From a virus, in the IMG/VR virus record IMGVR_UViG_3300047510_001096, positions 1 through 24,450 of that record: DNA of 24,450 nucleotides. One strand, written 5' to 3'. The notes beneath the pieces are model-generated. The model worked only from the letters and a program-made list of their open reading frames with translations. It was not told the origin of the DNA and searched no databases. The position numbers and the translations under genes were made by a program. Below, piece by piece: positions 18,890 to 24,127 of the stretch (positions within the stretch are counted from its first letter, which is position 1; each line of letters opens with the position of its first letter).

Positions 18890-20230
18890 TCAGTACAAGC
18901 GGATGCCCGTGCTCCGTCCCGCGTTCGCCTGCAATGGGTTGAACTCACGCCACACCACATACCCCAAGGCATCAACCATGTGATCGTGCCCCGCCTCCTT
19001 GTCCGGCTCGCCCTTCTCCGTCCAGCTCTGCAGCTCCAAGCACTCGATCAACTTCGGGCAGCCCTGGCCCACCGTCAGCCTTACCTGCCCTTTCCCGTTT
19101 TCCAACAGAGCTTGAACAGCAGCCACCCGATCACGAACGGCAGGATTAGACCGACCGGACTGGTTGCTAAAGCCATAGGACTCAAGGATTTGAATATCTG
19201 TTCTTGAGGCGTTTGTGGAGCGATTGCCGCCCGAGGCGTCAGGATATACATAGATACGGTGATCGGGATAACGGCGCTTGATCTCTTGAGCCAGGGCGTC
19301 GGTGTCATGGGCTCCACTGATCTCATCAACGACAGCCAGCCTGTCGCCACTCCGCACCGTAACCACGGCGGACATGTTGCCCACGTTGAAGTCCACGCCA
19401 ATTCGCAAAGGTTCACGGGAGAAATCGGCAAGGGTCGCCACCACATGCTTAGCCCTGTCGAACCTGTCGTAAACCTGTCCCGTATTGAGATTGACCCACT
19501 GGCCTTCGAGGTACGACTTGATTAACTGCGGCGGGTAGTTCGCCATCAGGCTGTCCACAAACCCATCAGGCAAAAATGGGTTATCCATCGTGCGGGCACG
19601 GATCAGCGCGGTATCTTCCCCGGCATTACGGTCAAACGTGTCAAACGCCCAGCCATAACCCTCAGGCGTCGTAGCGGCGTAAAACTGCTGCACGTTGCCA
19701 GCACGAAGACGGGCAAGGGCCATCCGTGTTGCCTGCTCTGCTACGCGCTTGTTCGCCGTATCCGCCTCATCGAATCCAATGGCGCAAAGGTTCTGACCAC
19801 GAATCCGGTTCCACGTTTCCATCGTCCTCAGAAGGATGGTGTGACTGCCCTCCGCGAAATGGAGCTGATATTCCGGCAACGGGCTGACGCGGAAGTCAAA
19901 CGGGATTTCCCATTCCTCTAATAGGTCATCCATCGTGCGCTGCAGGATGTCGCGCAGCATCGGGGCGACCGGCTCAAACAGGGCGGACACGTAGCCGATG
20001 TTGAGGGCTGCCATATGAACAGCCTTGGCAACGAGGCCATGGGTCTTGCCAGCACCGAACCCGCAGACAAGGGCAAGCTTGCGATGATCCGTGTCATCAC
20101 AGAAGGCGAGCTGATGCGGCAAGAGCGTTTGCCGAATGCGAGCTAGGGCTTCGGTAGCGGGCGGGCCAGTGAGCTGAGCAGTTGGCGGTTCAAGGAGATT
20201 GCCACCAGGCGCGTTAGCCAACAGGCTCAT
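18890..20230 (-). CDS. terL: Terminase large subunit (ATPase and nuclease)
   Basis: 446 aa. Walker A is GFGAGKTH (residues 57-64) and Walker B is IGFDEAD with D154 and E155. The coupling motif ATTPEGYGW is at about residues 186-194. The C-terminal RNase-H-like nuclease shows D280 (RIGVDFN), D331 (YVYPDASG) and the closing DHMVDALGY (416-424), the three positions expected for metal-binding acidic residues. TerL binds the portal, pumps DNA into the procapsid and cuts the concatemer. It overlaps the small subunit-like gene by four bases (ATGA). All key residues are intact. Confidence 0.96.
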   Translation of the reverse strand: MSLLANAPGGNLLEPPTAQLTGPPATEALARIRQTLLPHQLAFCDDTDHRKLALVCGFGAGKTHGLVAKAVHMAALNIGYVSALFEPVAPMLRDILQRTMDDLLEEWEIPFDFRVSPLPEYQLHFAEGSHTILLRTMETWNRIRGQNLCAIGFDEADTANKRVAEQATRMALARLRAGNVQQFYAATTPEGYGWAFDTFDRNAGEDTALIRARTMDNPFLPDGFVDSLMANYPPQLIKSYLEGQWVNLNTGQVYDRFDRAKHVVATLADFSREPLRIGVDFNVGNMSAVVTVRSGDRLAVVDEISGAHDTDALAQEIKRRYPDHRIYVYPDASGGNRSTNASRTDIQILESYGFSNQSGRSNPAVRDRVAAVQALLENGKGQVRLTVGQGCPKLIECLELQSWTEKGEPDKEAGHDHMVDALGYVVWREFNPLQANAGRSTGIRLY

Positions 20231-20544
20231 AAATCAAAGCCGATGAGCTTGGCTTGAAGTTGAACGGCGTTGACGGCTACTTGCGTTTGGCCGCGTTTAT
20301 AAGCCGATTGTTCGTAGGTACGAAGTCTGCCGAGGGCTTCAGCGAGCCAAGCAGGTCGCGCCATATCTGCATCTTGTTCAAGGCGAATACGAGCGCGTTG
20401 AATGTATTCATCTGTTTGACGATTTGATAGGCCCCATTGGTTAGCGCCGAATTGAACAATTTGGCCACGTGATTGTCCTTCGGTCAAAAGACCGTAAATG
20501 GTGTCAACACGGAAGTTGACTTCAGCGGCGGTAGAACGCGCCAA
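20227..20544 (-). CDS. Probable terminase small subunit
   Basis: 105 aa from TTG at 20544 (no ATG or GTG in frame upstream, no Shine-Dalgarno). Residues about 12-55 read as a helix-turn-helix-like region (VDTIYGLLTEGQSRGQIVQFGANQ, then LSNRQTDEYIQRARI), followed by a helical region ending AVQLQAKLIGFDL. Small terminases recognise the packaging site; they are often encoded just before TerL, with overlap as here. Shorter than the usual 130-180 aa. The alternative is a generic DNA-binding phage protein, but the pairing favours TerS. Confidence 0.75.
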   Translation of the reverse strand: MARSTAAEVNFRVDTIYGLLTEGQSRGQIVQFGANQWGLSNRQTDEYIQRARIRLEQDADMARPAWLAEALGRLRTYEQSAYKRGQTQVAVNAVQLQAKLIGFDL

Positions 20545-20694
20545 GTTTGCGGGAAAAGCGATGCAAACAGGATAAACCCAAAAGATGCATTCGGTGCGAG
20601 TGAGACAGATTTGAGACGCGGAGGAGACCCAAGCTTTGCCGAAATCGCGTGTTGCAGGGGCTTGCCAGCCAAAAAAATCAGACTAAGGTTGACC

Positions 20695-20774
20695 CGCAGA
20701 TTTCCGGGATTTGCCGGAGATTGCCGTAATCTTCCGAGATTTGCCGCAGATTTCCGGAATTTGCCGGACTGTGC
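20695..20774. repeat. Array of eight 10-bp tandem repeats in the divergent region
   Basis: Eight head-to-tail units of exactly 10 bases: CGCAGATTTC, CGGGATTTGC, CGGAGATTGC, CGTAATCTTC, CGAGATTTGC, CGCAGATTTC, CGGAATTTGC, CGGACTGTGC. Positions 1-2 (CG), 8 (T) and 10 (C) are invariant, and units 1 and 6 are identical. Ten bases is one helical turn, so all units face one side of the helix. It lies between the divergent late and early operons, 36 bases before the first plus-strand gene. Such arrays act as replication iterons or as operator clusters. The 23-base stretches at 20696 and 20746 match at all but one position, 50 bases apart. Confidence 0.85.
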
Positions 20775-20810
20775 CCCAAACCCATTGCAGCGACTGACTT
20801 TTCAAAACCG

Positions 20811-21533
20811 ATGCCTAAACGCCTTGAGCTTCGCTTACCCGACGAGGTGATTGAAGATGTGCTTAGACACAAGCCCAGAACCCTGTCCCTGCCTCAGTTT
20901 TGCCTGTTTTTGATTGAAATAGGGGTTGACAGGGAGGCTAAGCTACCCGCGTACCGTGTCGGTGCGGGAAACACAAGTAACCTCTCAACGGAGCAGGTGA
21001 AAGTTACGCCTGCATCACCGGAACCTTCAGACGAATCAGAAGATTCAGGCTTGCAGGCTCTTGGCTGTTCTGCTCCTGAAGATTTTGGTTTTGAACTAAC
21101 TAATTTCTTGGGGGATGGTGTCGGGAGGGAGTCTGAGGGAACCCCTAGGAAGGCCCCTTCTTTAGTTGTGCCGCAGGCAAGAAAACCTGTGGAAAAACGC
21201 CATCGGACGGAGTACGCCCCTGAGTTTCAAAAATGGTGGAAGCTGTATCAGTCGTCTCCTTCTAGGGCGTCAAACCAGAGCAAGCCACGAGCGTATGAGG
21301 AATGGAAGGTGGCAAAAGGTGGCCATGGCGCCGAGTGTTTGCTGTCCGCCCTTGAACGGAACATCAACGATCAGAAAGCAAATTTGAAATCAGGCAACTT
21401 CTGTTCCCCCTTGCCCGATGCCTTCCGTTGGATCCGTGACGGGCGTTATGAGGTTTGGCTTGAGGAGCACAAGGTCCAAGCTGCCGGGCGTCAATGGAGC
21501 GCTGAGCTGGGCTGCTGGATTGAAAACGACTGA
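20811..21533 (+). CDS. Putative replication initiator/helicase-loader-like protein with RHH-like N-terminus
   Basis: 240 aa. The N-terminus KRLELRLPDEVIEDVLRH then RTLSLPQFCLFLIEIGVD (about residues 3-40) has the strand-helix-helix look of a ribbon-helix-helix DNA-binding domain. A disordered Ser/Glu/Pro linker follows (50-130). Residues about 135-220 (FQKWWKLYQSSP, PRAYEEWKVA, LLSALERNINDQ, FCSPLPDAFRWIRDGRYEVW) resemble the C-terminal module of phage O/DnaA-loader type proteins (W-x-x-Y-P, AWxAW, LLxAL, PxPxxWLxxxRW). It is the first gene after the repeat array, which it may bind. No Shine-Dalgarno. Role as initiator is inferred; a repressor is the main alternative. Confidence 0.68.
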   Translation: MPKRLELRLPDEVIEDVLRHKPRTLSLPQFCLFLIEIGVDREAKLPAYRVGAGNTSNLSTEQVKVTPASPEPSDESEDSGLQALGCSAPEDFGFELTNFLGDGVGRESEGTPRKAPSLVVPQARKPVEKRHRTEYAPEFQKWWKLYQSSPSRASNQSKPRAYEEWKVAKGGHGAECLLSALERNINDQKANLKSGNFCSPLPDAFRWIRDGRYEVWLEEHKVQAAGRQWSAELGCWIEND

Positions 21534-23647: not shown

Positions 23648-24127
23648 GTGAACAACTCAACCAAAACCCGCATACGAAATGCCGTTCTTGACGCTCTCAG
23701 CGACGGTGATGACATAGCCGCCCATGAAATTCTTGGTCTATTGGTGTCGCAGCCACAAAAGGATCAAGGCGCAACAGTAGTACAGCAACTGGCTTTGCCG
23801 GGCGCCAAGATTATTGTTGATGGCCCAGCGCGAGACTATCACTATTGGATGAGATTCATACGAGAAAAATTTATACCATTTATGCATAGAAATGGACGCG
23901 AGCAGTTTACTAGTTATGAAGTGCTTAGTTGGCTCTGCAACTGTGGCAATCTTCAGCTAACAGCAGGTGATACTGAGGTGCTTGCTAATGGCAAAGAGGT
24001 ATGGAGGAATCAAGTTTATAGTGCCCTTTCAAACCTTAAGCAGATGGGAGTATTAGATGCAGAGCGTTTTGCGAAGTCCTATACGATCAAAGGCGTAAAG
24101 GGAGTTGAGGATGAAACCAGCGTTTGA
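23648..24127 (+). CDS. Putative winged-helix DNA-binding protein
   Basis: 159 aa from GTG 23648. The N-terminus is helical (KTRIRNAVLDALSDGDDIAA, then EILGLLV). The C-terminal half (REQFTSYEVLSWLC, WRNQVYSALSNLKQMGVLDA, KSYTIKGVKG) shows the order expected of a winged helix: helix, recognition helix in RNQVYSALSNLKQMGVL, wing. That reading is inference. It overlaps the next gene by 17 bases and follows the 11-bp direct repeat. No Shine-Dalgarno. Regulation of early or late transcription would fit. Confidence 0.6.
   Translation: MNNSTKTRIRNAVLDALSDGDDIAAHEILGLLVSQPQKDQGATVVQQLALPGAKIIVDGPARDYHYWMRFIREKFIPFMHRNGREQFTSYEVLSWLCNCGNLQLTAGDTEVLANGKEVWRNQVYSALSNLKQMGVLDAERFAKSYTIKGVKGVEDETSV

Follow-up and report, generated by a model that had tools for sequence, protein, structure and literature searches.

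The initiator O of bacteriophage lambda comprises an N-terminal DNA-binding domain, a linker and a C-terminal part that recruits the replisome, with the repeats and A+T-rich block of the origin located at the gene itself. Plasmid iterons are around 20 bp long, and some plasmids autorepress through these repeats. Ribbon-helix-helix (RHH) proteins such as Arc, MetJ, CopG and omega sit side by side as dimers on short repeated sites, where their strand residues read the bases. In the iteron plasmids P1, RK2 and pSC101, a direct-repeat array lies beside the rep gene together with DnaA boxes and an unwinding element, and the Rep proteins use winged-helix domains (PMC4980987).

The locus described here has its closest known counterparts in these systems. 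It was found in a window of 24,450 bases, the whole stretch of an IMG/VR virus record, which is likely to come from a cyanophage-like siphovirus of unknown host, as its terminase region shares approximately 70% DNA identity with the marine Synechococcus siphoviruses S-H1 and KBS-S-2A. The locus resembles ori lambda and O in the domain order of the initiator and in having repeats at the initiator gene, where most relatives also carry a block rich in A+T that is weak in the window, but differs in its RHH-like domain in place of a winged helix, its 10-bp rather than 18–19-bp units, and the position of its repeats before the gene instead of within the linker. The repeat array at the initiator gene is likewise shared with the iteron plasmids, whose Rep proteins are of the winged-helix type and whose iterons measure some 20 bp. 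Arc, MetJ, CopG and omega differ in being repressors or partition proteins that are not fused to an initiator, with units of, for example, 7 or 8 bp. The replication initiation protein of Prochlorococcus phage MED4-184 (YP_007674067.1) has a C-terminal domain homologous to that of the window's initiator, but its N-terminus is a winged helix. We found no described RHH-type phage initiator in the open literature, subscription journals being outside our coverage.

The 10-bp array and the divergent region

The structural genes of the window run leftward on the minus strand up to approximately 20544 and the replication side runs rightward from 20811, with a divergent intergenic gap of about 266 bp between them. 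Within this gap, on the plus strand, eight head-to-tail units of exactly 10 bp (CCGnnnnnTn) occupy positions 20694–20773, with a terminal CC extending the array to 20775. In order, the units are CCGCAGATTT CCGGGATTTG CCGGAGATTG CCGTAATCTT CCGAGATTTG CCGCAGATTT CCGGAATTTG CCGGACTGTG, and C1, C2, G3 and T9 are invariant in all eight. An earlier note, made from this DNA alone, had reported eight exact, in-phase 10-bp units, and this observation is confirmed. A run of eight in-phase CCGs is found nowhere else in the window on either strand (the runner-up has three), and the maximum in 200 first-order random windows was two in 180 cases and three in the remaining 20. In addition, the 100 bp before the initiator gene give a lag-10 autocorrelation of z = 4.4 against dinucleotide shuffles; together with the random windows, this rules out chance or low complexity as the origin of the array. 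A protein-coding repeat can also be dismissed, because the unit keeps a DNA period of 10, which is not a multiple of 3.

The extent of the array required correction. The earlier note had placed it at 20695–20811 and described it as filling the divergent gap; as it ends at 20775 rather than 20811, 35 bp separate it from the ATG of the initiator gene, and it covers only 82 of the approximately 266 bp. The remainder contains a promoter-like site and a second array. The promoter-like TTGCCA-N16-TAAGGT (20662–20689, plus strand) is a consensus match only; it immediately precedes the 10-bp array and is kept in nearly all relatives of the RHH types A to D described below. The leader between array and ATG (20776–20810, plus strand) is conserved within the window's own type. 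The second array, three GAGAC units spaced 11 bp apart (20602–20628, plus strand), is conserved whatever the RHH type, with relatives carrying GRGAC units at similar spacing independently of that type, and is probably a site for another protein. It lies upstream of a possible leftward −10 element (TATCCT, 20574–20569), and might for this reason serve the late operon as a site for an activator or repressor.

On the leftward side, the gene at 20227–20544 (minus strand) encodes a 105-aa protein that matches phrog_34910, a family of unknown function; its position adjoining the terminase large subunit suggests that it may be the small subunit. Separately, a pattern scan of viral contigs for the array alone returned five contigs (L155–L159) with an exact CCGnnATTTGCCGnnATTTnCCG match.

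A phage initiator with an RHH-like N-terminus

The gene downstream of the array (20811–21533, plus strand) encodes a protein of 240 aa, P0001, whose residues 61–230 match the phrog_270 replication initiation protein in a profile search (E 4e-7). The phrog_270 C-terminus was found in every RHH member tested, with E values from 3e-4 to 2e-10 among the RHH relatives; the profile scan matched nine of nine RHH relatives and one winged-helix relative. The conserved C-terminal domain itself (21215–21473, plus strand) is common to winged-helix phage initiators of the MED4-184 type, where it follows an HTH_36 winged helix. HTH_36 was absent from P0001 in the profile search, and is present at E 3e-9 in L058, a relative of MED4-184.

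The RHH-like DNA-binding domain occupies codons 1–40 (20811–20930, plus strand), with a strand KRLELRL and helices at residues 11–20 and 27–40. AlphaFold2 models the first 47 residues with a pLDDT of 82.8, placing these two helices after an alternating polar/apolar stretch; the model was made without a dimer or DNA complex, and an RHH strand needs the dimer. RHH_5 was the best and only recurring Pfam family for the N-termini, in 10 of 20 members, with a best E value of 0.0063 that remains below the curated cut-off. The window's own N-terminus is subthreshold when searched alone against RHH_5 (E 0.15, 12.2 bits against a cut-off of 26). Fold searches returned nothing significant, either with the full-length model of P0001 (pLDDT 52) or with the N-terminal model, for which the five weak matches included NikR and the TraM DNA-binding domain. 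Sequence profiles compared with solved structures likewise gave no significant match, the best being NikR with the N-termini of the Q type described below (E 0.25). Taken together, the phrog_270 match, the recurrence of RHH_5 and the AlphaFold2 helices support the proposal that an RHH-like N-terminus is joined to a phage initiator C-terminus, and we hold the assignment of the N-terminus as an RHH domain with high confidence.

Further along the replication side, positions 23648–24127 encode a 159-aa protein with a weak, below-cut-off match to Mrr_N (E 0.0017). In one relative, the downstream genes include an exonuclease, a RusA resolvase, a Sak-like annealing protein and a dCTP deaminase, and no helicase or loader was detected among the ten downstream genes scanned there. 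Recruitment of the host helicase is therefore a natural inference.

Repeat classes and their exchange with the RHH domain

Scans of viral contigs identified seven close relatives (84–100%) and many distant ones; none was found in bacterial genomes or plasmids, and no isolated phage with the RHH form of the initiator was found. All close relatives keep an array of 8–9 units just downstream of the conserved promoter, subgroups differing by about one unit, and the array is conserved in L003 and L005–L008. Arrays do, then, precede the gene in these relatives, and their absence would have counted against the reading of initiator and array as a pair. A strict 10-bp CCG or CCCG array occurs once per genome in the three near-whole relatives of these classes.

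The wider relatives were sorted into RHH types by their strand sequence. In type A, to which the window belongs, the strand triad R-[E/D]-R accompanies the repeat TTnCCG; type B pairs R-E-Q with CCCG, type C R-D-R with TTTCCGC and type D x-F-R with GCAA, while one type E member has a GTnACC repeat. Types A and C thus share a TTnCCG core and an R-[E/D]-R triad, with N-termini that are only about half identical. Over the 100 bp before the gene, autocorrelation was strongest at lag 10 (mean z of 4.6 in A, 3.1 in B, 4.0 in C and 3.2 in E), the GCAA arrays of type D being the least regular (mean lag-10 z of 1.1). Within each of the types A, B and C, the distance from promoter to gene varies by about 10 or 20 bp (131/139, 55/65 and 60/80), and in types B–D the array abuts the start codon. 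By the same lag-10 measure over 100 bp, no 10-bp array precedes the gene in the Q-type relatives (L026–L063), which have an N-terminus VPxINVRIT, a Q-N-R triad, an 11/22-bp upstream periodicity and a different promoter region. The Q-N-R triad equals the strand triad of Arc.

The repeat class of the leader, called from DNA alone, agrees with the RHH type in 35 of 35 non-redundant loci across the four types A–D; the GCAA criterion is loose, being also satisfied by eight of nine Q-type loci. A tree of the C-terminal protein following the RHH domain (37 loci) requires 15 changes of RHH type (shuffled mean 18.6, minimum 4), with rough bootstrap values. The boundaries of exchange are visible in 13 pairs of different type whose C-termini are at least 88% identical. 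These pairs show approximately 70–90% identity between −190 and −80 and only 36–56% from −40 to +20, where same-type pairs retain 72–90%. Different-type pairs with near-identical C-termini thus diverge between about −80 and about codon 40 and resemble each other on either side. In L190 and L199 the contrast is sharpest, with 96–100% identity down to −180, 23–26% in the array and 100% from codon 40 onwards.

Judging from these sequence comparisons, phages exchange the RHH domain and the array together, as a single specificity cassette. Simple linkage accounts for part of the concordance, since array and RHH codons are adjacent; it would explain joint transfer, but not the placing of one boundary at the array and the other where the RHH domain ends, which points to co-adaptation. 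That the repeats change together with the DNA-reading end of the initiator suggests that they are its docking site for starting DNA replication. A more tentative extension, which we consider somewhat less probable than its negation, is that diversified cassettes are shuffled almost freely between near-identical cyanophage-like genomes under origin competition or incompatibility, with the strand residues forming a readable code. The drivers of such shuffling could be superinfecting phages, satellites or origin decoys.

Origin, operator or another role for the array

We favor a model, to which we assign a probability of roughly 0.7, in which the array is an iteron-like origin and operator bound by the RHH initiator, a protein of the lambda O kind whose DNA-binding domain has been exchanged and whose sites match. 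In this model, RHH dimers of the initiator would occupy the 10-bp units in succession, at steps of one helical turn and along a single face of the DNA. As the array lies just downstream of the initiator gene's own promoter, binding should also silence that promoter, so that the initiator would shut off its own expression. The tethered C-terminal domains would then recruit the replicative helicase, and the DNA would open at the A+T-rich linker within the initiator gene, possibly with host DnaA. The initiator would thus work like lambda O, with an RHH domain replacing the winged helix and iterons before the gene rather than inside it. The earlier suggestion that initiator and array form an origin or autorepressor unit is supported by the available tests, most directly by a repeat that follows the RHH type in every A–D locus; binding, autorepression and helicase recruitment are all inferred, without binding data.

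Origin activity is also inferred, there being no replication data, and the sequence evidence on it is mixed. Across each locus, up to approximately 5.6 kb long, A+T content peaks in the initiator-gene linker in 27 of 37 RHH cases, and in most relatives this block is about 80% A+T. The window has a weak counterpart of only 60%, the A+T-richest part of its initiator gene (21050–21109, plus strand), as a candidate unwinding element. The cyanobacterial DnaA-box consensus is TTTTCCACA (PMC4674748); boxes of this type occur in 15 of 37 rep loci and not at all in 172 kb of flanks. The sole copy in the window lies inside the initiator gene (21188–21196, minus strand), and the box just upstream is missing there. 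The earlier note had also proposed GC skew as a means of mapping the origin, and this failed to place it: the window's skew peak is 0.8 kb from the array, but in relatives the peak is 3–6 kb off or absent, with no turn at the array in most. GC skew was consequently set aside.

It is possible, though in our view unlikely, that the initiator binds the array merely to repress its own promoter and that replication starts elsewhere. In favor of this, a conserved promoter lies directly before the array, most known RHH proteins act as autorepressors, and GC skew lends no support to an origin exactly at the array. Yet the gene encodes an initiator, the array is unique in the relatives' genomes of the CCG and CCCG classes, and A+T-rich block and DnaA boxes concentrate at the initiator locus; it is the in-gene block and the boxes of the relatives that make us lean towards a combined origin and operator. 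Far less credible is that another phage or host regulator occupies the array, with the RHH domain recognizing a different target and the two moving together only as neighbors. They are indeed physically linked, and the adjacent GAGAC array hints at other proteins binding between these genes, but the downstream exchange boundary coincides with the end of the RHH domain instead of the gene end, and the sequence of the array varies with the strand residues expected to contact DNA. An RNA element controlling translation or attenuation in the mRNA leader seems to us the least plausible of all, even though the array is probably within the transcript and, in types B–D, reaches the start codon: a period of 10 bp, that of the DNA helix, makes no obvious sense in RNA, no inverted repeat was found at the array, and an RNA family was rejected in the absence of any Rfam match.

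Should the combined origin and operator be correct, the RHH fold would join the short list of phage-initiator DNA-binding domains, and an initiator would be seen to switch DNA specificity, in step with its origin, by replacing a domain. Copies of the lambda origin supplied in trans block lambda (PMC4488673), and the natural series of RHH–array pairs makes both origin incompatibility and the rules of RHH recognition directly testable, while supplying candidate origins for a poorly studied phage group. A further candidate, lambda-like by analogy, is found in the winged-helix relative L117, where the middle of the initiator gene (2862–2985) holds three 18-nt repeats and, after them, three A-rich 15-nt repeats, matching the layout of ori lambda.
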